Shown here piece after piece: positions 50,622 through 62,988 of a stretch of 64,000 nucleotides of DNA. A program made the translations under genes and the position numbers. Under the pieces are notes generated by a model. That model saw only the letters and a list, made by a program, of their open reading frames with translations, did not search any database and had not been told where the DNA came from. Where the stretch lies: assembly GCF_026109735.1 (NCBI RefSeq), contig NZ_CP069620.1, forward strand, positions 1,612,001 to 1,676,000. Reading direction: 5' to 3'. Numbering within the stretch: the stretch's first letter is position 1; each line of letters starts with the position of its first letter. This DNA is from Salinimicrobium tongyeongense. GTDB lineage: Bacteria > Bacteroidota > Bacteroidia > Flavobacteriales > Flavobacteriaceae.

Positions 50622-51482
50622 ATGAATTACAGAACAATAGGTATTGATATAGGGGCGACCAAGACCAGGATTGGGGTCGTTCAAGATGCACAGGTAATTA
50701 AGGAAGCCGATTTTCCAACTTCTTCTACGGCTTCAAAACAGCAAATTTTAGATGAACTTTCCGCAGGCATCATTGAGGTTGCCGGAGGAGATTTCTACGG
50801 AATTGGAATTGGGGTTCCGGGGCTGGTAGATGAGGAGAACGGCATCCTGTTCGATCTCCTGAACATCCCTTCTTTTAAGGAAGTGCATCTAAAAGACCAT
50901 TTAGAGCGACAGTTTAATAAACCTGTTCGCGTGACCAATGATGCAAACGTTTTCGCCATGGGTGAAAAGATGTTTGGTGAGGGACAGCCTTATAAAAACC
51001 TGGTGGGAATCACCCTGGGTTCGGGTTTTGGATGCGGAATCATCATACATGACCAGCTGTATTCAGGTGCGTATTCGAGTGCGGGGGAAATAGGCAGTAT
51101 CCCTTATTTAGACGGAATTATTGAAGATTACTGCAGCGGAAAATTCTTTAAGAGAAATGGCATTTCCGGGAATGAAGTCTTTAAAGGTGCACAGGCTGGA
51201 GATGAAGCAGCATTGTTGCTTTTTGAAAAATTTGGGGAGCACCTTGGCAGCGCCATAAAACTGATATTAAACGTGCTTTCGCCCCAGGCCATATTACTGG
51301 GAGGATCCATAAGCAAAGCATTTCCGTTTTTTGAAGCCAGTCTTCAGAACACCATAAACAGTTTTCCTTTTAAGAAGGTAAGGGAACAACTGATTGTTAA
51401 ACCTTCAAACACCTCAAATATTGCCCTTTTAGGAGCTGCAGCATTAATTCTTGCTGAAACGCCTAAACCTGTAGACTATTAA
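50622..51482 (+). CDS. ROK-family sugar kinase (amino-sugar or glucose kinase)
   Basis: A 286-residue kinase of the ROK family, first in the amino-sugar operon. The phosphate motif is GIDIGATKTRIGVV (residues 5-18), the substrate segment is VPGLVDEENG, and the catalytic Asp is in VTNDANVFAMGE. The usual zinc motif CxCGxxGCxE is absent; IPYLDGIIEDYCSGKFF stands in its place, a short-ROK form. Context with MurQ and GH20 suggests GlcNAc or MurNAc as the substrate, but glucose is possible. Confidence 0.88.
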   Translation: MNYRTIGIDIGATKTRIGVVQDAQVIKEADFPTSSTASKQQILDELSAGIIEVAGGDFYGIGIGVPGLVDEENGILFDLLNIPSFKEVHLKDHLERQFNKPVRVTNDANVFAMGEKMFGEGQPYKNLVGITLGSGFGCGIIIHDQLYSGAYSSAGEIGSIPYLDGIIEDYCSGKFFKRNGISGNEVFKGAQAGDEAALLLFEKFGEHLGSAIKLILNVLSPQAILLGGSISKAFPFFEASLQNTINSFPFKKVREQLIVKPSNTSNIALLGAAALILAETPKPVDY

Positions 51483-51493
51483 TTTAATTCCCT

Positions 51494-52762
51494 ATGGCTA
51501 AAACTACTGCAAACAATACATCGGCTGCCGTTAACGATTCTGGTAACGCCACCCGTTCCATCATTATTATTGGTGCGCTCTTCTTCATCTTCGGGTTTGT
51601 GACCTGGCTCAACGCACTTTTAATTCCATACCTCAAAATTGCCTGTGAGCTCACCACTTTTCAGGCTTATTTTGTGACCTTTTCATTTTATATTGCCTAT
51701 GTGGTCATGGCGCCCATATCTACCAGGACCTTAAACCATTTCGGTTTTAAAAAAGGGATGTCGGTAGCTTTAGGTGTCATGGCATTGGGAGCCTTACTTT
51801 TCATTCCGGCGGCAATGAGCCGCACGTACCTGGTATTTTTACTTGGCCTGTTTGTAATGGGTGGAGGTCTGGCCATTCTTCAAACTGCAGTGAACCCTTA
51901 TGTGACCATTGTTGGGCCGGCAGAGAGTGCCGCAAAACGAATTAGCATCATGGGGATCTGTAACAAGCTTGCAGGTGCCATAGCGCCAATATTAATAGGA
52001 GTTTTCCTTCAGCTGGATAAAGCTGAAGTTCTTGCAGGAACTACAGATGAAGCTGCTTTAGATGAAATGGCGCTTCGGGTAATTCCTCCTTATATCGGTA
52101 TCATAATCGTGTTGCTGGCTTTGGCCCTGTGGGTTTATAAATCTAGTCTTCCTGAAGTTGAGGCCGAAGATGAAGACGATGCAAATGCGCTTCAGAAAAA
52201 TACTAAAAAAATCACCGATTATCCGCACGCCATCCTCGGGGTGGTTACACTTTTTATATATGTGGGTGTTGAAGTTATAGCCGTTGATACCATTATTGAC
52301 TACGGAATTTTTCAGGGGTTTGATTTTGAAACTGCCAAAGGCTTTACCACAGGTACCATGGCTGCAATGATCATTGGTTATCTTCTGGGAATCGTTGCTA
52401 TTCCGAAGTTTATAAAACAGGAAAACGCCCTGAAGGTTTGTGCTATTCTTGGCGTAGTGTGCACTGTGGGGGCAATTTTCACTTCAGGCTTTTTGTCGGT
52501 AGCATTTATTGCCCTTTTAGGGCTGGCAAATTCATTGATGTGGCCTGCCATCTGGCCGCTTGCTTTGGCAGATGTAGGAAAACTTACCAAAGCAGTTTCA
52601 TCCCTGCTTGTAATGGGAATTGCGGGGGGTGCAATTATACCGTTGGCCTATGGCGGTTTGGCAGAAGCACTTGACAAGCAAATGGCTTATTGGGTAGCAG
52701 TACCGCTTTATTTGTTCATTCTTTATTACGCGGTTGCAGGACACAAAATAAGAAAGGCATGA
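51494..52762 (+). CDS. MFS sugar transporter, FucP/NagP-type
   Basis: A 422-residue major facilitator with 12 predicted helices. FFIFGFVTWLNALLIPYLK near residue 30 is the FucP/GlcP N-terminal signature, and GGGLAILQTAVNPYVTIVG matches the fucose/GlcNAc permease branch. The gene lies 11 bp after the ROK kinase, and its stop overlaps the next start codon (ATGA). In this operon it probably imports GlcNAc or MurNAc, yet glucose, galactose or fucose remain possible. Confidence 0.9.
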   Translation: MAKTTANNTSAAVNDSGNATRSIIIIGALFFIFGFVTWLNALLIPYLKIACELTTFQAYFVTFSFYIAYVVMAPISTRTLNHFGFKKGMSVALGVMALGALLFIPAAMSRTYLVFLLGLFVMGGGLAILQTAVNPYVTIVGPAESAAKRISIMGICNKLAGAIAPILIGVFLQLDKAEVLAGTTDEAALDEMALRVIPPYIGIIIVLLALALWVYKSSLPEVEAEDEDDANALQKNTKKITDYPHAILGVVTLFIYVGVEVIAVDTIIDYGIFQGFDFETAKGFTTGTMAAMIIGYLLGIVAIPKFIKQENALKVCAILGVVCTVGAIFTSGFLSVAFIALLGLANSLMWPAIWPLALADVGKLTKAVSSLLVMGIAGGAIIPLAYGGLAEALDKQMAYWVAVPLYLFILYYAVAGHKIRKA

Positions 52763-53523
52763 GACCTTACATACTGGCAGAAACAAACTGGAAAGCTGTA
52801 AAAGAGCAAAAAACCGAGGTGGCTGTGCTTACCTGGGGCGCTACTGAAGCTCATAATTTTCACCTGCCTTATGCCACAGATAATTATCAGATAGAGGCAA
52901 TTGCTGCCGAAGCTGCCAAAAATGCCTGGGAAGCAGGAGCAAAGGTGCTGGTCTTGCCCAATATACCTTATGGTGTGAATACAGGGCAGACAGAAGTTGA
53001 ACTTTGTATGAACCTGTACCCCTCCACGCAGCTGGCAATTCTCAATGATCTTGTGGAAGTTCTTCACAGAAGTGGGATTAAAAAACTCCTTTTGCTGAAC
53101 GGTCATGGCGGAAATAATTTTAAAGCTCTTTTGAGGGAAGTAGGAGCGAGGTATCCAAAAATGCTCCTTGTGACCACAAGTTTTTTTCAGACGGTAGACC
53201 GGAAGGAGTTCTTTGAAGAAGCCGGAGACCACGCCGATGAAATGGAAAGCAGTTTAATGCTGCATTTAAAGCCCGAACTTGTGCTGCCGCTTCAGGAAGC
53301 AGGAACGGGAGAGGAAAAAAGGTCAAAATTGACCGCAATTAAGCAGGGCTGGGCATGGAGTGAAAGGAAATGGCACCTGGTTTCGGCAGATACCGGGATA
53401 GGAAACCCCAAAAAAGCTTCCGCAGAAAAAGGAAAGCGGTTTTTTGAGGCCGTAACCCGTCAGGTGGCAGATCTATTACTCGAAATGGATAAAATTAATA
53501 ATGAGGATCGGTACGAGGAATAA
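52759..53523 (+). CDS. creatininase-family amidohydrolase
   Basis: A 254-residue creatininase-fold metalloenzyme. Metal ligands are seen in GATEAHNFHLPYATD (Glu30, His32, His35 and Asp41 by position), NGHGGN near residue 115 and GDHADEMESSL. The family hydrolyses small cyclic or linear amides and includes a formamide hydrolase and MftE; no amino-sugar substrate is established. The longer open frame starts inside the transporter gene, but MRPYILAET with the ATGA overlap is the natural start. Its place in a GlcNAc/MurNAc operon suggests an amide or deacylation step. Confidence 0.88.
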   Translation: MRPYILAETNWKAVKEQKTEVAVLTWGATEAHNFHLPYATDNYQIEAIAAEAAKNAWEAGAKVLVLPNIPYGVNTGQTEVELCMNLYPSTQLAILNDLVEVLHRSGIKKLLLLNGHGGNNFKALLREVGARYPKMLLVTTSFFQTVDRKEFFEEAGDHADEMESSLMLHLKPELVLPLQEAGTGEEKRSKLTAIKQGWAWSERKWHLVSADTGIGNPKKASAEKGKRFFEAVTRQVADLLLEMDKINNEDRYEE

Positions 53524-53562
53524 AAAGCCGGTCGAAATTTATAACCCTACAAAAATGTCATT

Positions 53563-55149
53563 ATGAAATACCTTTTTAGAGGCCTTGGTTTCTTACTTTT
53601 TGCCGCCACCCTTACTTCTTGTGGAGGATCAGAAACTTTAAAAGCCCCGCAAACAACTGCTATTCCCGAAATTCCTGCCATTATCCCGCTGCCTGCACAG
53701 GTGAGCTGGGAGGAGAGAGCTTATGCGATTCCGGTTGAAAATAATATTTGTTATTCGGGTGAAGCACAAGAAGCGGCTCAGTGGATTGAGACCCTGCTTA
53801 GCAAAGCAGGTTTTTCGGTTTCTGCCAATGCATCGGCTAACTGCGGAAACTGGAGAATTGAACAGGACAGTTCTTTAAATGCTACTTTAGGAGAAGAAGG
53901 GTATCAGCTAAAAATTTCCGAAGAGGGCGTTATGCTGAAGGCTGCTTCAAAAGCCGGACTTTTCTACGGAATTCAGACGCTGCGCCAAATGTTTCCCGCC
54001 CAAATTGAGAGTGAGGGCTTAAAAGGAGGGGTGGTGCTTAGGCACACTTCTATTGAAGATAAACCTGAATTTGGTTGGAGAGGAACCATGGTAGATGTGG
54101 CCAGAAGTTTCTTTGATCTGGAATATTTAAAGCGGCACGTAGACAGGATGGCGCTTTACAAGATGAACCGTTTGCACCTGCATTTGTCCGATGATCAGGG
54201 ATGGAGGATAGAGATTAAAGGCTGGCCTAAATTAACAGAGATAGGCGGGAAAAGTTCGGTGCGTAGGGGACGCTCAGGTTATTTGACCCAGGAGGAATAC
54301 AAAGAGCTTCAGGATTACGCTTTGGAGAGAAACATCACCATAATTCCTGAAATTGATATGCCGGGCCATATTTATGCCGCCCTGTTATCTTACCCCGAAT
54401 TGAACTGTGACGAATATTCCAATTTAACTCCAAAAAGGGCAATCCCGCCAGCTATTTTTGAAGATTACAATGTTGGATGGAGCAAGTTCTGCCTTGAGAA
54501 CCCCGAGATATACAAATTTGTTGCCGATGTTGTTGAAGAAATGGCCGAAATCACCAAAGGGCCATGGCTGCATATTGGGGGAGATGAAATTGAAGACCCG
54601 AGATATGAAGAATTTGTTATTAAAGCAGATTCTATCGTGCAGTCTTATGGTAAAACCACTATTGGCTGGGAAGAAGTTACTAAAGCTGAAGTGAGTTCTA
54701 ATCTTATTAGTCAACAATGGCATGGAAAAGTTGAAAGCGTAGTGAAAGATATAAAGGTAATTCACTCTTTGTGTTCTGGACTTTATCTGGATCATGCTAA
54801 TGAACCGGGGCAGGAGAATACCAATAACTGGTGTAAGAAAGACGGGGTTAGCCTGGAGAACACCTATAATTTTGACAATTATAATCCCAATGTATTAGGG
54901 GTTGAGGCAGCTGTGTGGAGTGAATATGTTCTTACAGACGAAATGATGGACAATAGGTTCTGGCCCCGCGCTATTGCAGCGGCAGAAGTAGGTTGGACTA
55001 AAGGGAGCCACAGAAATTATGATGACTTTGCAGAGAGACTCGGAAAACAGGGAGACAGATTACGAGCCCTCGATATCAATTTTTATAGAAGTCCTGGAGT
55101 AAACTGGGGTGTCGAAAAGACCGTTCCGGGAGTATTTTCTAATTTGTAA
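53563..55149 (+). CDS. beta-N-acetylhexosaminidase, GH20, lipoprotein
   Basis: A 528-residue lipoprotein (LTSC, Cys20) with an N-terminal GH20b-type domain (residues 35-165) and the GH20 TIM barrel from about 170. The catalytic pair is Asp341-Glu342 in LHIGGDEIED, with RGTMVDVARSFF, LHLHLSDDQGWRIE and PEIDMPGH before it. It removes terminal GlcNAc/GalNAc from chitin- or peptidoglycan-derived oligosaccharides at the cell surface or periplasm. It is 39 bp after the creatininase gene. Confidence 0.95.
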   Translation: MKYLFRGLGFLLFAATLTSCGGSETLKAPQTTAIPEIPAIIPLPAQVSWEERAYAIPVENNICYSGEAQEAAQWIETLLSKAGFSVSANASANCGNWRIEQDSSLNATLGEEGYQLKISEEGVMLKAASKAGLFYGIQTLRQMFPAQIESEGLKGGVVLRHTSIEDKPEFGWRGTMVDVARSFFDLEYLKRHVDRMALYKMNRLHLHLSDDQGWRIEIKGWPKLTEIGGKSSVRRGRSGYLTQEEYKELQDYALERNITIIPEIDMPGHIYAALLSYPELNCDEYSNLTPKRAIPPAIFEDYNVGWSKFCLENPEIYKFVADVVEEMAEITKGPWLHIGGDEIEDPRYEEFVIKADSIVQSYGKTTIGWEEVTKAEVSSNLISQQWHGKVESVVKDIKVIHSLCSGLYLDHANEPGQENTNNWCKKDGVSLENTYNFDNYNPNVLGVEAAVWSEYVLTDEMMDNRFWPRAIAAAEVGWTKGSHRNYDDFAERLGKQGDRLRALDINFYRSPGVNWGVEKTVPGVFSNL

Positions 55150-55161
55150 ATCCATTTAAGG

Positions 55162-55992
55162 ATGATGAAAAACAACTATGGAAATAAGCCAACAACCGAG
55201 AGGTCATCAAATTATGATCATCTTGAGAAGATGAGTACACAAGAATTACTCACAAATATTAATAATGAAGACAAATCTGTACCTCTGGCAATTGAAAAAC
55301 AATTACCTGCCATTGAAAAATTGATAGATGTCATTGTGGCCCGTATGCAGGAAGGTGGCAGGCTGTTCTATATTGGAGCCGGAACCAGTGGCAGGCTGGG
55401 AGTGCTGGATGCCTCTGAATGTCCCCCCACATTTGGAGTTTCTGAAGACTGGGTGATAGGATTAATTGCAGGGGGCGATCATGCTCTAAGACATGCTGTT
55501 GAAAATGCAGAAGATGATTTTGACCAGGCCTGGAAAGATTTGGAGAAATTTCATATAAGTAAAAAAGATGTGCTGGTAGGCATAGCAGCTTCGGGCACTA
55601 CGCCTTATGTGATTGGCGGAGTAAAAAGAGCCAGGGAAGAAGGGATAGCGACGGGTTGTATTACCTGTAATGATAGTAGCCCTTTAGCCGCTGAAGTAGA
55701 GTTTCCTGTTGAAGTAGTGGTAGGGCCCGAGTTTGTTACCGGCAGTACCAGAATGAAAGCGGGCACTGCTCAAAAATTAGTACTCAACATGATTTCCACA
55801 AGCAGCCTCATAAAAATGGGGAGAGTAAAAGGAAATAAGATGGTTGATATGCAATTGTCCAACAAAAAACTTGTTGAAAGGGGTGTTCTAATGGTTATGG
55901 AGGAACTTAAGATAGAGCGAAAAAAAGCAACAGATCTTTTGGCTCTTCACGGAAGTGTAAGAGAAGTTTTAAGAAAATTTCGAAAGGAGTAA
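55162..55992 (+). CDS. murQ: N-acetylmuramic acid 6-phosphate etherase
   Basis: Cleaves the lactyl ether of MurNAc-6-phosphate to GlcNAc-6-phosphate and D-lactate; defining enzyme of muramic acid recycling. The 276-residue SIS-domain protein shows FYIGAGTSGRLGVLDASECPPT (in two blocks) with the catalytic Glu, then ALRHAVENAEDD and VTGSTRMKAGTAQK. It begins 12 bp after the GH20 gene. Its presence fixes the operon's function as peptidoglycan amino-sugar catabolism. Confidence 0.96.
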   Translation: MMKNNYGNKPTTERSSNYDHLEKMSTQELLTNINNEDKSVPLAIEKQLPAIEKLIDVIVARMQEGGRLFYIGAGTSGRLGVLDASECPPTFGVSEDWVIGLIAGGDHALRHAVENAEDDFDQAWKDLEKFHISKKDVLVGIAASGTTPYVIGGVKRAREEGIATGCITCNDSSPLAAEVEFPVEVVVGPEFVTGSTRMKAGTAQKLVLNMISTSSLIKMGRVKGNKMVDMQLSNKKLVERGVLMVMEELKIERKKATDLLALHGSVREVLRKFRKE

Positions 55993-56019: not shown

Positions 56020-56898
56020 TTACTCAGTTGTTTCATTATATAAGGCACTATGATTCATTTCCTGATACTCACTGGGAGAAATTTTGTGAATTTTTCGGAA
56101 AGTACGATTAAAATAAGAGAGACTATTAAAACCCGATTGATAAGAAACTTCAGAAATAGCCTTTACAGGAGAAGTTTCCTGTAAAAGTTTACAAGAGTAA
56201 CTTATTCTAATTTCATTCAGAAATCTTATAAAAGGCTTACCTGTACTTTTTTTAAAGTATCTGCAGAATGCAGACTTATTCATACCACATTTTTCTGCTG
56301 CTTTGCCAAGGGTAATGTCCTCTTTGAAGTTTAGCATTATAAATTCAACAGCATCATTTACTCTTTTTTCTGAAATTCTATAGTGGTTAAGCCAGTTCAA
56401 ACTTCCCAGGCTTGTATAGGTTTTATATCTTGATAATTTCAGTAAAATGTTAAGAACATTAAGAGCATTTTCGGAATGGGATTCACTATCAATATTGTCT
56501 AATATTTGCAATATTTGAAAATTCTCAACTTGTCGAAATAAAACTCCTCTTTTGCTTATGCTTTCAATTTGTTTTAAAAATGAAAATTCGGAAAAATATT
56601 TACTACTGCTGTTGAGAAAATATTCGTGAATATGGAAAACATAAGCTTTTGAAATACTATTTTCTTCATTCGAGTTTTTACTGTGAAACATGTGAGGTAC
56701 ATTCTGACCAATAAGGAAAATATCGTCTTTTTTATAATCACCTATAAAATCTCCAGCGTACAATGTGCCTTCTCCTTCAACTATATATACCAATTCAAGT
56801 TCAGGGTGATAATGCCAAAGTTTAAGAAATTGCCTGGCTTCATGAACTGAAAATTTAATGTTCCTAGTTAAATATTTATGTAAAAATTGCAGTTTCAT
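56020..56898 (-). CDS. AraC-family transcriptional regulator
   Basis: A 292-residue regulator with an N-terminal cupin-like domain (FSVHEARQFLKLWHYHPELELVYIVEGEGTLYAG in pieces, residues 17-50) and a C-terminal double helix-turn-helix (ITLGKAAEKCGMNKSAFCRYFKK, then ISEVSYQSGFNSLSYFNRTFRK). The cupin domain probably senses a sugar or sugar acid. Divergent from the UxaA-type gene across 147 bp that contain two direct repeats; it is therefore the likely regulator of the fucose locus. Confidence 0.92.
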   Translation of the reverse strand: MKLQFLHKYLTRNIKFSVHEARQFLKLWHYHPELELVYIVEGEGTLYAGDFIGDYKKDDIFLIGQNVPHMFHSKNSNEENSISKAYVFHIHEYFLNSSSKYFSEFSFLKQIESISKRGVLFRQVENFQILQILDNIDSESHSENALNVLNILLKLSRYKTYTSLGSLNWLNHYRISEKRVNDAVEFIMLNFKEDITLGKAAEKCGMNKSAFCRYFKKSTGKPFIRFLNEIRISYSCKLLQETSPVKAISEVSYQSGFNSLSYFNRTFRKIHKISPSEYQEMNHSALYNETTE

Positions 56899-56960
56899 TA
56901 TCCTTTGTAAAGTATTTCAATAGCTATAACATAAAGGAAATGAAAATAAATAGGTTGTGC

Positions 56961-56994
56961 AAATATTGTTCAATACAATGTAAATATTGTTCAA
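56961..56994 (+). promoter_or_regulatory. AraC-type operator: 13-bp direct repeats 21 bp apart
   Basis: AAATATTGTTCAA occurs at 56961-56973 and again at 56982-56994, exactly 21 bp (two helical turns) start to start. The second copy reaches the expected -33 region of the promoter whose -7 box is at 57016-57023. This is the classic arrangement of an AraC-family activator dimer. Binding is inferred. Confidence 0.6.
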
Positions 56995-57015
56995 ATATTT
57001 CATTTTTGGGAAACT

Positions 57016-57023
57016 TATCTTTG
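57016..57023 (+). promoter_or_regulatory. -7 box of the fucose operon promoter
   Basis: TATCTTTG, full TAnnTTTG match, 23 bp before the TTG start at 57046. The second direct repeat ends 21 bp upstream. Confidence 0.65.
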
Positions 57024-57045
57024 AGGGAGTAACTTTAATTTATTA

Positions 57046-58659
57046 TTGTCATTTTTGGACAAAGCTGTAATTATATCACCTAATGACAATGTAGCTGTTG
57101 CTCTTCAAAATATACAGAAGGGAGAGTTGTTGAAAATGAATAACTCTTCAATTAAAATGGTAGAAGATGTGCCAGTAAAGCATAAAATTTCACTTCATTT
57201 TTTTTGTAAAGGTGATATTATCTACATGTATGGGGTTCCGGTAGGAGAAGTTATTGTCCCTATACCGCCCGGAGGTAGATTGACTACTGTAAATGTGAAA
57301 CATCTGGCTGCAGAATATAAGATAGGTAACCCCGAATACGATGTTATACCGCCCGATGTAGGTCATTTGGAAAATAAATATTTTCATGGGTATTACCGGG
57401 GGGACGGACAGGTAGGAACAAGAAATTTTTGGCTCTTTATTCCTATGGTTTTTTGTCAAAACCGCAACTTGCAGGTTTTGAAAGAAGCTTTTGATACTGA
57501 GCTTGGTTATAAAAAAGAAAACCCTATTAAACAGCAAATTAAAGAGCTTATAGGTGATAGCAATGGTTCTTCCTCAATTCCGAAGTATAGAAAGATCTTT
57601 GAAAATATTGATGGAATTAAGTTTCTAAGTCATGAAGGGGGCTGTGGGGGCACCAGGGAGGATGCTCAAATGCTGGTAAATCTGCTAGCAGGATACATAA
57701 ATAACCCCAATGTCGCGGGAGCTACAGTTTTAAGTCTGGGCTGCCAACATGCGCAAGTGAGTATGTTACAGGAGGTTTTGAAAGATAAGTATATCTGTAA
57801 AAAACCCGTACTTTATTTTGAACAACAACAATATGCTTCAGAAAAAGAAATGCTCAGAGATATTGTTAACGATACATTTAAGAAACTTAAAGAAGCAAAT
57901 AAAATTAAAAGGAACCCTGCACCTTTAAGTAAGCTTAGTATAGGCCTGGAATGTGGTGGGTCTGACGGATTTTCAGGAATTACGGCAAATCCTTTAATAG
58001 GTAATGTTTCAGATAAAATAGGAGCTCTTGGAGGTAAGGGAATATTATCTGAATTTCCTGAATTGTGCGGTGTAGAGCAGGATATTATAAATCGCTGCGA
58101 AACCAGGGAAACCGCCGAAAAGTTTATAAATCTAATGGAAGCTTACAATACAAGGGCAAAAGAGGTAGGTTCTGGCTTTGATATGAACCCTTCACCAGGT
58201 AATATTAAAGATGGCCTTATAACAGATGCCATAAAATCGGCAGGGGCAGCAACTAAAGGTGGCAGAGCAGCAGTTACAGATGTTCTTGATTATACGGAAT
58301 ACGCTGTAAAACCAGGCTTGAATCTTCTATGTACCCCAGGAAATGATGTAGAGTCAACCACTGGTCTTTGCGGTTCGGGAGCAAACCTGATTCTGTTCTC
58401 TACAGGTCTTGGAACTCCCACGGGTAATCCTATATGCCCGGTTTTGAAAATTTCTTCTAATTCTGCACTCCCAAAAAAAATTACTGATATAATAGATTTT
58501 GACGCTGGAAGGATAATTTCAGAGGGTGCTTCGTTAGAAGATCTATCAGAAGAACTGCTGGAATTAATAGTAGAAGTTGCAAGTGGAACAAAGAAGACCT
58601 GTGCAGATATATTAGGTCAGGACGACTTCATTCCATGGAAACGTGGAGTTTCACTATAA
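57046..58659 (+). CDS. UxaA-family dehydratase, probable L-fuconate dehydratase
   Basis: A 537-residue sugar-acid dehydratase of the UxaA (altronate/galactarate) family. It has an N-terminal SAF domain (ISPNDNVAVALQNIQKGELL), GYYRGDGQVGTRNFWLFIPM (in two parts), Cys-containing segments EGGCGGTRED and GLECGGSDGFSG, and the closing STGLGTPTGNPICPVLK. UxaA enzymes use an iron site. No ATG fits; TTG at 57046 (or 57055) starts the SAF domain just after the promoter. The fucose genes on either side suggest L-fuconate as the substrate, as a replacement for an enolase-type FucD; altronate is the alternative. Confidence 0.85.
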   Translation: MSFLDKAVIISPNDNVAVALQNIQKGELLKMNNSSIKMVEDVPVKHKISLHFFCKGDIIYMYGVPVGEVIVPIPPGGRLTTVNVKHLAAEYKIGNPEYDVIPPDVGHLENKYFHGYYRGDGQVGTRNFWLFIPMVFCQNRNLQVLKEAFDTELGYKKENPIKQQIKELIGDSNGSSSIPKYRKIFENIDGIKFLSHEGGCGGTREDAQMLVNLLAGYINNPNVAGATVLSLGCQHAQVSMLQEVLKDKYICKKPVLYFEQQQYASEKEMLRDIVNDTFKKLKEANKIKRNPAPLSKLSIGLECGGSDGFSGITANPLIGNVSDKIGALGGKGILSEFPELCGVEQDIINRCETRETAEKFINLMEAYNTRAKEVGSGFDMNPSPGNIKDGLITDAIKSAGAATKGGRAAVTDVLDYTEYAVKPGLNLLCTPGNDVESTTGLCGSGANLILFSTGLGTPTGNPICPVLKISSNSALPKKITDIIDFDAGRIISEGASLEDLSEELLELIVEVASGTKKTCADILGQDDFIPWKRGVSL

Positions 58660-58721
58660 GACAAAACAAGATTAGGAAAAGGTATTTTTAATGACAGTAG
58701 AACATCTAGAATTTTAATGTT

Positions 58722-59501
58722 ATGAAGTTATTTAACCTTAAGGGGAAAACAGCAATAATTACCGGAGGTGGTAGCGGGATAGGAAAGGCAATCTCAGAAA
58801 CCTTTGCGGCCCAGGGTGTCAGGATACACGTTCTTGAATATAGAGAAGAGGAAGGGGGTAAAACCGTAAATGGAATTAAAAATAATGGAGGTAAAGCCGA
58901 GTTTCATCAATGTGACGTTTCAAAACAGGGAGAGGTAATAAAAGTTGTTGAAAAGATAGGGAAAACTCAACCTATCCATATTCTTATCAACAATGCAGGT
59001 GTGGCTCACGTTGGGAATGTTGAAACCACAACCGAAGAAGATCTAGATAGGCTTTACCAGGTGAATATTAAAGGAGTCTATAACTGCCTGTATGCAGTTG
59101 TACCTTATATGAAAAGAAATGGTGGCGGGTGCATTATCAACATGGCAAGTATAGCATCGGTGGTAGGTATATCAGACAGGTTTGCATATTCAATGTCAAA
59201 AGGAGCTGCTTTAACAATGACTTATTCTATCGCCAAAGATTACATTGACTTTGGAATTCGATGTAACTGTATTTCGCCGGCGCGTATTCATACCCCGTTT
59301 GTGGATGGATTCATAGCTCAAAATTATCAAGGAAAAGAAGCTGAAATTTTTGATAAACTTTCTAAAAGTCAACCCCTGGGAAGAATGGGAACTCCCGATG
59401 AGGTAGCCGGCTTAGCAGTTTATTTATGTTCTGATGAAGCTTCTTTTATCACCGGAACGAATTTCCCTATTGATGGAGGGTATATTAAACTTAATGGATA
59501 A
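58722..59501 (+). CDS. SDR-family oxidoreductase, probable 2-keto-3-deoxy-L-fuconate dehydrogenase
   Basis: A 259-residue classical short-chain dehydrogenase. Seen: ITGGGSGIGKAISE (nucleotide loop), NNAGVAHVG, catalytic Ser in MASIASV with YSMSK (YxxxK), and the C-terminal DGGYIKLNG. In the Xanthomonas-type fucose pathway an SDR oxidises 2-keto-3-deoxy-L-fuconate to 2,4-diketo-3-deoxy-L-fuconate, and another oxidises L-fucose; the neighbouring dehydratase and FAH gene favour the first role. Its stop is immediately followed by the GH29 start. Confidence 0.87.
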   Translation: MKLFNLKGKTAIITGGGSGIGKAISETFAAQGVRIHVLEYREEEGGKTVNGIKNNGGKAEFHQCDVSKQGEVIKVVEKIGKTQPIHILINNAGVAHVGNVETTTEEDLDRLYQVNIKGVYNCLYAVVPYMKRNGGGCIINMASIASVVGISDRFAYSMSKGAALTMTYSIAKDYIDFGIRCNCISPARIHTPFVDGFIAQNYQGKEAEIFDKLSKSQPLGRMGTPDEVAGLAVYLCSDEASFITGTNFPIDGGYIKLNG

Positions 59502-61292
59502 ATGAAAAGAATACTTACTTTTTTAAGCTTATTATTTTTTAGCTCAGTTATAGCTCAAACCACACATGAAGAGGCAAAAAGGGCAATTGAAGCCAGAGAT
59601 TTCCCAAACTGGTTTCAGGATGCCAAACTAGGAATTTTTATTCACTGGGGATTGTATTCGGTTCCGGCTTATGGTGGAAAGGAAAGTTATTCTGAATGGT
59701 ACCTGCGTGGTTTACAAATGAACGACAGCTTACGTACTAATTTTTTAAAGAACACCTATGGAAGCGATTTTAGCTATAATGATCTTACCAATGAATTTAA
59801 GGCCGAGCTATTTGATCCTGAAGAATGGGCAGATTTATTTAACAGAGCGGGAGCTAAATATGTTGTGTTAGTCTCTAAACATCATGATGGGTACGCCCTT
59901 TGGCCAAGTAAGTATAACCGTAACTGGAATAGTGTAGATACAGGTCCCAAAAGGGACATTGTTGGAGAAGTTACAGAAGCAGTTAGAGATTCGGGGCTTA
60001 AAATGGGATTGTATTATTCTTTACCAGAGTGGAATCATCCGTTGCATAGGTGGTACAGTGATCCTCACGACAGTATAAATACTTATGTTGAAAATTATAT
60101 GATACCTCAATTTAAAGAGCTTGTAAGCACATATAAACCTTCTTTAATATTTGCTGACGGAGAATGGTATAATTCTGCCAAACAATGGCACTCTGCAGAG
60201 CTTATTAACTGGTATTATAATCTTGTTGGAGAGGAAGCAATTGTAAACAACCGGTGGGGAAGCGGACTCGATGTGGGTTTTCTTACCCCTGAGTATAGTG
60301 CAGGAATCAAAGAAACCTCCAGGCCATGGGCTGAAGTTAGGGGTATAGGACGTTCTTTTGGACTCAACCGAAATGAAGACCTGGAGGCATATGGTACCTC
60401 AAAGGAACTTGTTGAGAAATTTGTTCAGGCTGTAGCAAATGGAGGAGGAATGATCTTAAATGTTGGTCCTGGAGCCGATGGTCAAATTCCATTAATACAG
60501 CAGGAGCGACTTGTACAACTAGGAAACTGGCTCGAGATAAACGGCGAGGCAATTTATGGAGCAGAATCATTTGATATTATTGAAGAAGAGAAAGAGGTGC
60601 AAATTTCCCGAATAGATGAGGTGATCAATTTTAATTGGGTGCGTAATTCGCCATTAAAAGGAATTAGAGAAGATGATTTTTCCGTGAGGTGGGAAGGCTA
60701 TCTTGTTGCTCCCAAAAATGGCAAATATAATATTGAGTTAGATGCAGATGATGAAGCAATTCTTGAGCTTGATGAAAAAACAATTATAAATAACAATTAT
60801 ACAGCTCCAGACAAAGAAGCTGAAGTTATGAACGCAAATACCAGCTATTCGGAAAATGCTGTAGTTAATTTAAAGGCCGGCAAACCTTATAAACTGGTAT
60901 TGAATTACAGAGAAAAGAAGCAGAATGCAAAGGTTACACTGTCCTGGAGCAGTAAAGGAGATGAGAAAGAGATTATTCCTGGTGGCGCTTTGTACTTAGA
61001 TCAGGAAAAGACTCAGCGAGGGTTACAGGGAAAATACACTTCATTAAAAACACACATTGCTTACACTAAAAAGAACAATTCCCTGTATGCAATTAGTTTT
61101 GAATGGCCTGATGATTCTTTACAATTAAATATTCCAAAGCCAAAATCTGGAGCTACAGTGAAAATGCTTGGTCTTGAAAGAGAACTTGACTGGAGCTACG
61201 AAAACAATAAAATGTTTATTAACACCAGCGGAATTAAATATAATGAATTACCCTCCCATGATGCATGGACATTCAAAATAGATAATTATTAA
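59502..61292 (+). CDS. alpha-L-fucosidase, GH29, with C-terminal PA14-like domain
   Basis: A 596-residue exported glycosidase with signal peptide (LFFSSVIAQ). The GH29 barrel has IFIHWGLYSVPAYGG, YVVLVSKHHDGYALWPS and the nucleophile Asp219 in LIFADGEW. After residue 380 a PA14-like domain (FSVRWEGYLVAPKNGKY) follows, then a beta-domain. It releases fucose from oligosaccharides such as fucoidan or glycan fragments. It follows the SDR gene with no spacer. Confidence 0.94.
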   Translation: MKRILTFLSLLFFSSVIAQTTHEEAKRAIEARDFPNWFQDAKLGIFIHWGLYSVPAYGGKESYSEWYLRGLQMNDSLRTNFLKNTYGSDFSYNDLTNEFKAELFDPEEWADLFNRAGAKYVVLVSKHHDGYALWPSKYNRNWNSVDTGPKRDIVGEVTEAVRDSGLKMGLYYSLPEWNHPLHRWYSDPHDSINTYVENYMIPQFKELVSTYKPSLIFADGEWYNSAKQWHSAELINWYYNLVGEEAIVNNRWGSGLDVGFLTPEYSAGIKETSRPWAEVRGIGRSFGLNRNEDLEAYGTSKELVEKFVQAVANGGGMILNVGPGADGQIPLIQQERLVQLGNWLEINGEAIYGAESFDIIEEEKEVQISRIDEVINFNWVRNSPLKGIREDDFSVRWEGYLVAPKNGKYNIELDADDEAILELDEKTIINNNYTAPDKEAEVMNANTSYSENAVVNLKAGKPYKLVLNYREKKQNAKVTLSWSSKGDEKEIIPGGALYLDQEKTQRGLQGKYTSLKTHIAYTKKNNSLYAISFEWPDDSLQLNIPKPKSGATVKMLGLERELDWSYENNKMFINTSGIKYNELPSHDAWTFKIDNY

Positions 61293-61302
61293 AATATTTT
61301 AA

Positions 61303-62160
61303 ATGAAACTAATAAGATTTGGTGAAGCCGGAAAAGAAAAACCTGGAGTACAACTTCATAGTGGGAAACGAATAGACGTTTCAAATTTCTGTGCAGACTA
61401 TACTGAAGATTTTTTTAAAAATGACGGCCTCGCAAACCTTCAAGCCTGGATCACAGAAAATGCTGAAAACTGTAAAGAAGTAGCAGGTGATGTGAGGCTT
61501 GGACCTCCTGTTTTAAAACCTTCTAAAATTGTATGTATAGGTTTAAACTATGCAAAACATGCTGCCGAAAGTGGAATGGAGGTTCCCAAAGAACCAGTAA
61601 TATTCTTTAAAGCTACAAGTGCCATTGTGGGGCCTAATGATGACTTAATTATCCCTAAAGGAAGCACTAAAACAGATTGGGAAGTGGAACTGGGGGTAGT
61701 GATTGGAAAAAAAGCTTCTTATGTAGATGAAGCAGATGCCATGAATTATGTTGCAGGATATGTACTTCACAATGATTATAGTGAAAGGGAATATCAGCTT
61801 GAGCGCGGTGGCCAATGGGTAAAAGGGAAGAGCTGTGATACCTTTGCACCCATCGGGCCATATTTAGTAACTAAAGATGAAATTGAAGATCCACACCGCC
61901 TTGATTTGTGGTTAAAGTTGAATGGCGAAATAGTGCAAAAAAGTAATACGTCAGATTTTGTATTTGACATTCCTCAGGTTGTGAGCTACGTTAGTCAGTA
62001 TATGACGCTTTTGCCCGGAGACATTATTTCAACAGGTACTCCATTTGGTGTAGGAATGGGTTTTAAACCTCAAAGATACCTAAGACCCGGAGATGTTGTA
62101 GAATTGGGAATTGAAGGCTTGGGAACATCAAAGCAAACTGCCAGAGCCTACAAAGAATAA
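61303..62160 (+). CDS. fumarylacetoacetate hydrolase-family protein, probable 2,4-diketo-3-deoxy-L-fuconate hydrolase
   Basis: A 285-residue FAH-fold hydrolase: IVCIGLNYAKHAAESG, PVIFFKATSAIVGP, metal ligands in TDWEVELGVVIGK (Glu-x-Glu) and the later DYSERE, KGKSCDTFAPIGP, and ISTGTPFGVGMG. In the non-phosphorylating fucose pathway this family cleaves the diketo acid to pyruvate and L-lactate. The gene follows GH29 by 10 bp. The family call is firm; the pathway role rests on context. Confidence 0.9.
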   Translation: MKLIRFGEAGKEKPGVQLHSGKRIDVSNFCADYTEDFFKNDGLANLQAWITENAENCKEVAGDVRLGPPVLKPSKIVCIGLNYAKHAAESGMEVPKEPVIFFKATSAIVGPNDDLIIPKGSTKTDWEVELGVVIGKKASYVDEADAMNYVAGYVLHNDYSEREYQLERGGQWVKGKSCDTFAPIGPYLVTKDEIEDPHRLDLWLKLNGEIVQKSNTSDFVFDIPQVVSYVSQYMTLLPGDIISTGTPFGVGMGFKPQRYLRPGDVVELGIEGLGTSKQTARAYKE

Positions 62161-62163
62161 ATA

Positions 62164-62988
62164 ATGAAAATTGACAGTCATCAACACTTTTGGTCCTATA
62201 ATCCACATCGGGAGAGTTGGATTACCGATGATATGTCCGGTATAAGGAGGGATTTCTTTCCTAAAGACTTGGAGCCTTTACTTCGGCAGAACAAATTTGA
62301 TGGTTGTATTGCTGTACAGGCAAATGACACTGAAGCAGAATCTCAGTTTTTACTGGATCTTGCAGCTCATAATGATTTCATTAAAGGCGTGGTGGGATGG
62401 GTAGATCTTACGGCCGAAAGCTGTGAAGAACGATTGTCTTTTTTTTCTCAAAACTCCTTATTTAAAGGAATAAGATATACACTTCAAAAAGAAAAGCCCG
62501 ATTTTATCCTAAACCCTCTTTTTAAAAGGGGAATTTCTCTTTTGTCTAAATTCAATCTTACTTTCGATCTACTTGTACTTGAACATCAACTGCCGGAAGT
62601 TATCCAACTTGTAAAAGAATTTCCTGCCCAACCCTTTGTGCTGGATCATATGGCTAAACCTCAAGTTAGTAAGGGTCTCTCCTATGATTGGATAGAGAAT
62701 ATAAAATTATTAAGTAGTTATAAGAATGTCTATTGTAAAGTATCAGGATTTTTAACTGAGACAGAGGACTTTAAGTGGCTAAAGAACAATTTTAATCCTT
62801 TTTTTGATGTAGTAAGCGAAGCTTTTGGTGAGAACAGATTGATGTATGGGTCCGATTGGCCGGTATGTCTCGCTGCCGGAAGTTATGCAGATACGCTGGA
62901 AATAGTGGAGGATTATTTCTATACTCAGGAAAATGGTTTATTTAAAAAGCTAATGGGTATAAATGCAGAAAAATTTTATCATTTATGA
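62164..62988 (+). CDS. COG3618 amidohydrolase, probable L-fuconolactonase
   Basis: A 274-residue TIM-barrel hydrolase: DSHQHFW at the N-terminus (metal His pair), GIRYTLQKE, FVLDHMAKP, YCKVSGF and the final metal Asp in MYGSDWPVC. This set matches sugar-lactone lactonases of COG3618 (L-fuconolactonase and L-rhamnono-lactonase). With the dehydratase, SDR and FAH genes it gives steps two to five of fucose oxidation. It starts 3 bp after the FAH stop and its stop overlaps the GH95 start (ATGA). Confidence 0.9.
   Translation: MKIDSHQHFWSYNPHRESWITDDMSGIRRDFFPKDLEPLLRQNKFDGCIAVQANDTEAESQFLLDLAAHNDFIKGVVGWVDLTAESCEERLSFFSQNSLFKGIRYTLQKEKPDFILNPLFKRGISLLSKFNLTFDLLVLEHQLPEVIQLVKEFPAQPFVLDHMAKPQVSKGLSYDWIENIKLLSSYKNVYCKVSGFLTETEDFKWLKNNFNPFFDVVSEAFGENRLMYGSDWPVCLAAGSYADTLEIVEDYFYTQENGLFKKLMGINAEKFYHL

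Follow-up and report, generated by a model that had tools for sequence, protein, structure and literature searches.

A gene for a creatininase-family hydrolase lies within a five-gene sugar operon at positions 50622 to 55992 of the window, the 64,000 nt stretch of DNA analysed here (positions 1612001-1676000 of a 3.51 Mb single-contig Salinimicrobium genome), and the question raised by this locus is what such an enzyme would do there. The operon reads, all on the + strand, from a ROK kinase through a NagP-like MFS transporter and the creatininase-family gene to GH20 and MurQ (Table 1). The first-pass annotation had proposed that the product cleaves an amide of an imported muramyl derivative, such as a muramyl lactam, or removes an N-acyl group, and had named the absence of recurring murQ linkage in other genomes as the result that would speak against this.

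Table 1. Genes of the operon and the matches on which their names are based.
Product	Position	Strand	Evidence
ROK-family sugar kinase	50622..51482	+	PF00480 3.1e-48; no NCBIfam cut-off passed; GlcNAc/MurNAc kinase type, predicted
NagP/GluP/FucP-type MFS sugar transporter	51494..52762	+	NagP_SO3503 396.5 bits (cut-off 625); gluP 270.1 bits (cut-off 202.55)
Creatininase-family hydrolase	52759..53523	+	PF02633 4.4e-58; AlphaFold mean pLDDT 95.9; PDB 3lub Z 34.6
GH20 beta-N-acetylhexosaminidase	53563..55149	+	PF00728 4.8e-82; PF02838 2.3e-23
MurQ, N-acetylmuramic acid 6-phosphate etherase	55162..55992	+	TIGR00274 329.5 bits (cut-off 302)

The ATG of the creatininase-family gene (52759) and the TGA of the upstream MFS gene (52760-52762) overlap by 4 nt, as expected for the translational coupling to a NagP/FucP-type transporter stated in the first-pass annotation, though the transporter passed the cut-off of gluP and failed that of fucP (173.6 vs 280.4 bits) as well as that of NagP_SO3503. 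The same -4 nt overlap is present in all five Salinimicrobium relatives of 81-91% identity (L112-L116); it is -1 in L118 and, as called, -64 in L117. The GH20 and MurQ genes reported downstream are likewise confirmed by their profile matches, and the N-terminus of the GH20 protein, judged by eye, is lipoprotein-signal-like. The G+C content of the creatininase-family gene is 0.458 and that of the other four operon genes 0.418-0.446, a similarity that offers no compositional hint of recent import. Further along the window, at 56020-62988, an AraC-type regulator gene (- strand) stands beside a run of genes resembling a non-phosphorylated L-fucose route, with a galactarate/altronate-dehydratase-like enzyme, an SDR, a GH29 with PA14, an FAH-family hydrolase and a fuconolactonase-like amidohydrolase; the best NCBIfam hits of the scanned genes, all but the SDR, were under their cut-offs.

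The open reading frame encodes 254 amino acids with no internal stops, and its match to PF02633 covers the whole profile (1-238 of 238; 197 bits vs a cut-off of 31.3), which upholds the assignment to the family; it is the sole PF02633 match in the genome. No signal peptide was seen by eye. In the AlphaFold model (pTM 0.92), the protein is predicted to adopt the creatininase alpha/beta fold, with a clear gap to the next structural match: the best hit was PDB 3lub of Bacteroides fragilis (rmsd 1.4, 42% identity over 249 residues), followed by 3no4 and creatininase entries at Z 26.0-27.1 and then by a fall to 8.3. A resemblance to muramoyl-L-alanine amidases was dropped, since AmiC2, CwlV and AmiA scored Z 6.7-7.2 amid unrelated rows of like Z. 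Residues E30, H32, D41, H116 and E163, which we take, carrying them over from creatininase, to be the metal-binding site, are invariant in 51/51 aligned relatives, as are R126, R203, W205 and D211 among further positions. The statement that the metal ligands are intact therefore holds for these five residues but not for the position of creatininase Glu122, which is Gly118 here; Trp154 of creatininase is likewise replaced by Phe143 (profile alignment, positions counted by hand). Given these two replacements, substrate choice should differ from that of creatininase.

None of the named members of the family accounts for the protein. With creatininase (PDB 1j2t, 1q3k) it shares the fold (Z 26.4-26.5) and the E/H/D/H/E positions, at 24% identity, and differs at the two residues named above. 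A true creatininase acting on creatinine would have the Pfam family and the fold in its favour, but the score against the creatininase equivalog TIGR04448 was 73.1 bits vs a cut-off of 235, and together with the Gly118 and Phe143 positions this makes such a function hardly credible; as judged by its sequence, the protein is predicted not to be a creatininase proper. No other equivalog cut-off was reached. The mycofactocin peptidase MftE (TIGR03964) belongs to the same family, but the score of 76.1 bits was under the cut-off of 172, and the 3-dehydro-scyllo-inosose hydrolase IolN (NF041098), which its NCBIfam name marks as a family member with a carbohydrate-like substrate, scored 36.7 bits vs 245. 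According to excerpts of PMC10885120, MftE is a creatininase homologue that cleaves a leader peptide. With peptide cleavage and an inosose hydrolase both represented in the family, a non-amide reaction is possible for the window protein too. The closest structure, 3lub, a putative creatinine amidohydrolase, is alike in fold and length, in the ligand positions and in a GNPKKA segment, and differs in having P in place of T25, I45 and N68 and W in place of F142 (aligned by hand); no paper on its function was found among the titles listed from the open-licence literature. The titles and abstract openings listed from that literature likewise pointed to no amino-sugar role for the creatininase family.

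Relatives at an E value of at most 1e-20 were found in 80/395 phylum genomes, 95/397 family genomes and 7/12 genus genomes, the own genome being counted in each; the 95 family carriers include a partial match (G513) and one of 31% identity (G304). The surroundings of 200 loci were surveyed, comprising 80 from the phylum (of 83 non-own matches), 40 from the family and genus (six of them genus members), which are a minority of the 95 family carriers, and 80 from named genomes. Three (L109, L110, L111) had no hit at 1e-10 and were dropped, leaving 197, in which duplicates were kept (L112 = L160, L115 = L161, L116 = L162, and others among the unlinked loci) and some flanks end at contig ends. The searches for MurQ, NagP, GH20, ROK and NagB used tblastn, and lists of neighbouring frames are approximate (longest frames, greedy removal of overlaps).

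A murQ gene was found near the creatininase-family gene at 17/197 loci, equivalent to 14 distinct contigs, and three further loci (L164, whose contig ends about 300 bp past the gene, L168 and L177) hold parts of the operon without MurQ. All 20 operon-type loci belong to Salinimicrobium, Christiangramia/Gramella, or genomes and MAGs close to them, and most loci of the Salinimicrobium/Christiangramia type retain the order ROK-NagP-gene-GH20. The remaining 177 loci are without the operon, with MurQ absent from the stretch examined, a stretch that contig ends shorten in places. The murQ linkage thus does recur in other genomes, but it is confined to this one group, and among the 197 loci none beyond it shows the linkage (0/177). 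Relatives outside the operon group, mostly of 42-64% identity, have heterogeneous neighbours, genes for bacterial PH-domain proteins among them, and a Pfam scan of cluster representatives found no shared neighbourhood theme.

Two local patterns were seen elsewhere. Close upstream, the gene met most often is a fatty-acid-hydroxylase-like one, a label taken from a Pfam scan of the L044 copy alone; it lies within 100 nt in 12 loci of same-family genomes (L044, L052, L066, L068 and others). In one genus (g68; L056, L061, L062, L064, L069), the relative follows a run of glutamine-synthetase-like, HAD and methyltransferase genes, as annotated from L056.

The murQ neighbours at 14 distinct contigs are what speaks for an enzyme that acts on an imported muramyl compound, by opening a muramyl lactam, removing an N-acyl group or cutting a peptide amide; so does the operon of Tannerella forsythia, in which, in excerpts of PMC5790795 and PMC5388701, a transporter, a MurNAc kinase and MurQ are encoded together (murTKQ) for MurNAc. 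The likeness is limited to these functions: MurT belongs to the sodium symporter superfamily (excerpts of PMC5790795), unlike the MFS transporter of the window, and no creatininase-family gene is named for murTKQ in the excerpts of either paper. Co-occurrence of MurQ with the gene across genomes was tried as a test and was uninformative, because MurQ is near-universal in the family, with matches in 374/397 genomes against 95 for the creatininase-family gene, and this disproportion itself argues against a muramyl substrate. One nearly complete carrier genome (G641) has no MurQ match. Furthermore, the gene persists without murQ at two operon-type loci. At L168, of Gramella AN32, ROK-NagP-gene-GH20 is followed 3 bp on by a convergent gene for a NagB-PIG-L fusion and then by a NagC-like regulator gene, with murQ absent; at L177, of C. 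sabulilitoris, the gene and GH20 are followed by a convergent NagB-PIG-L gene, with murQ absent from the cluster. At both loci a SusC-like gene, labelled by eye from the start of its sequence, lies beyond NagB-PIG-L. Elsewhere NagB-PIG-L is further away, the downstream distance being about 7.5 kb in S. xinjiangense (L115/L161) and 10 kb at L167; in the own genome it is about 60 kb.

Within the genus, with one NagB-positive genome that is 75% complete and in which the gene was not found (G401) left out of the count, the creatininase-family gene is present in 7/7 NagB-positive and 0/4 NagB-negative genomes, and MurQ is present in 12/12. The four gene-free Salinimicrobium genomes are about 100% complete, and in all of them MurQ directly follows the transporter, which argues further against a muramyl role. 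Their transporter and MurQ matches (G395, G397, G399, G402) lie 18-21 nt apart, leaving no room for a creatininase-family gene or GH20, and the pair may be an operon form devoted to salvage alone. The transporters of these four species are 58-61% identical to that of the window, compared with 69-73% for the named Christiangramia/Gramella loci and 58% for the MAG locus L164. As the gene-free species are thus less like the window in their transporter than Christiangramia/Gramella are, transfer of the operon is possible. Overall, a MurNAc-directed function is improbable, and for muramyl-lactam cleavage nothing speaks but the presence of murQ nearby in a single group of genomes. MurQ would be a fellow resident of the operon, supplying the same pool, and probably not the partner that defines the role of the creatininase-family gene.

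The wider family was assessed in 80 hand-chosen genomes, with genome sizes of 3.0-6.1 Mb for the 40 carriers and 3.3 Mb or more for the 40 non-carriers, at one per genus except that the own genome (G000) and G395 share a genus. NagB was present in 40/40 carriers and 25/40 non-carriers (p 1.2e-5, tests ignoring the tree). A control gene, xylose isomerase, also differed in the same 80 genomes (34/40 against 24/40, p 0.023), so part of the NagB association reflects lifestyle. The NagB difference was nevertheless kept in both xylA strata, with 6/6 vs 5/16 in one and 34/34 vs 20/24 in the other (p 0.012 and 0.025, respectively).

Taken together, these results support a tie between the creatininase-family gene and a GlcNAc module. 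A GlcNAc role is favoured over a MurNAc role, given the two loci that lack murQ and have NagB-PIG-L, the NagB pattern within the genus and the presence of NagB in every carrier of the 80-genome set. The amino-sugar part of the earlier interpretation is therefore retained, with its proposed removal of an N-acyl group as a possible reaction, and its muramyl-specific part is not, the murQ linkage being confined to one group of genomes and absent from L168 and L177. The favoured reading, to which we give a probability of roughly 0.45, is that the product is a cytosolic, probably metal-dependent hydrolase of a Bacteroidota-centred creatininase subfamily that was recruited into the Salinimicrobium/Christiangramia GlcNAc operon, where it would most likely remove the N-acyl group of GlcNAc-6-P or of a closely related amino sugar, in parallel to PIG-L. 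In this pathway, the release of GlcNAc by GH20 would take place outside the cytoplasm, import would follow through the NagP-like carrier, GlcNAc being the presumed transported sugar, and the ROK kinase would convert the sugar to GlcNAc-6-P. The creatininase-family hydrolase would then act alongside the PIG-L domain of a NagB-PIG-L fusion encoded elsewhere, which would finish the path to fructose-6-P. We infer the location, the metal dependence and the reaction of the hydrolase: a cytosolic location from the fact that no signal peptide was seen, and N-deacylation from the N-acetyl group being the sole amide on the GlcNAc path.

A deacetylation step is the one for which the operon encodes no known enzyme, and the canonical enzyme, NagA, was not found at 1e-15 in any of the 12 genus genomes, two of which are about 75% complete. 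This absence prompted the idea that the creatininase-family protein replaces NagA as the sole GlcNAc-6-P deacetylase. Across the family, where NagA matches below 1e-50 occur in 38/397 genomes, NagA is however commoner among carriers (23/95 vs 15/302 non-carriers, p 3.8e-7, tree ignored), the opposite of what a simple replacement predicts, and this also weighs against the favoured reading, as does the nature of the NagB partner itself. In the own genome the partner is a PRK02122-type fusion (1067.8 bits vs a cut-off of 384) with a PIG-L domain of its own (PF02585, 2.3e-15), and such a fusion could take GlcNAc-6-P to fructose-6-P as a single protein. HPDDD and DPHGTH, presumably the PIG-L motifs, are intact in 24/24 distinct copies from four carriers and 20 non-carriers. 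The 26 rows checked represent these 24 genes (L115, L158 and L161 being one), and the copy at L167, cut by the end of the locus, was not scored. In the motif check of fusion copies the NagB pattern was unmatched in L252 and L259, and in other carriers the fusion is assigned from open-frame length alone (more than 630 aa for the best match).

The NagB-PIG-L match of the own genome is at G000:C1:1725767-1726474 (L159:367-2286), outside the window and next to a gene for a NagC-like regulator; this genome has no NagA match.

Among the 25 NagB-positive non-carriers, 20 have neither NagA nor the creatininase-family gene, so another deacetylase must exist there if GlcNAc is used. Given this and the enrichment of NagA among carriers, PIG-L is the better candidate for the general deacetylase than the creatininase-family protein. 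Sole replacement of NagA, weakened by that enrichment and by the intact PIG-L motifs, was rejected and is very improbable, and the same 20 genomes count against the favoured reading of an enzyme acting in parallel to PIG-L.

A different explanation is that the protein is a general hydrolase of Bacteroidota that acts on something unrelated and was captured once by the sugar operon and then kept by descent. The many unrelated contexts of its relatives are as this would predict, and the 177 loci without such an operon weigh against the GlcNAc reading, as the protein's general function could be a different one. A tree built from 51 sequences grouped nine of ten operon sequences in a clade (support 98/94) deep within the family, hence inside the general tree. 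The tenth, L117, from a 74%-complete genome assigned to the same genus, fell outside this clade; its neighbours were a Balneolaceae sequence and one other, and support there was weak (91/72). A single origin of the operon label is conceivable.

The operon sequences differ from the others at particular residues. A filter for group residues gave positions 25, 45, 68, 142 and 251, the last being set aside as C-terminal tail. T25, I45 and N68 are common to nine of the ten operon sequences and F142 to all ten, while the 41 other sequences have P at position 25 in 41/41, W at 142 in 37/41, A at 45 in 24/41 and T at 68 in 27/41; F142 is found in 2/41 of these and N68 in 3/41. By the secondary structure of the model, positions 25, 68 and 142 map to the ends of strands or just beyond them, and the helix beginning at ligand D41 contains position 45; this placement would be consistent with a changed active site. 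L117, an operon member that has just one of the four residues and branches apart from the clade, speaks against the favoured reading, as does L177, which keeps the gene and GH20 although tblastn detected no ROK and no NagP in the 10 kb upstream. Capture and passive retention are quite possible, but they leave unexplained the joint presence of the gene and NagB within the genus, the -4 nt overlap in each of the five Salinimicrobium relatives, the retention of the gene where murQ is missing and the residues special to the operon group.

GlcNAc use has a known counterpart in the chitin utilisation locus of Flavobacterium johnsoniae, which, in excerpts of PMC5127042, also combines GH20 and NagB in one cluster, together with SusC/D-like pairs. 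The predicted route there is NagK-NagA-NagB. It differs in that NagA is predicted elsewhere in the genome, and a creatininase-family gene is not named in those excerpts.

A bolder form of the GlcNAc reading would make the protein the first enzyme with a creatininase fold to take part in amino-sugar catabolism. It would act in the cytosol as an N-deacylase on GlcNAc-6-P or a similar amino-sugar phosphate, would be unrelated to NagA and retuned at positions 25, 45, 68 and 142 on joining the GlcNAc operon, and would work beside NagB-PIG-L; this is speculative and rather doubtful. If true, it would mean new chemistry for the creatininase family and an added part in the use of GlcNAc by marine Bacteroidota. 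It would also sharpen a wider question, namely which enzyme takes off the acetyl group in these bacteria, where NagA, the textbook enzyme, is mostly missing; the PIG-L half of the NagB fusion is the foremost candidate for that step.
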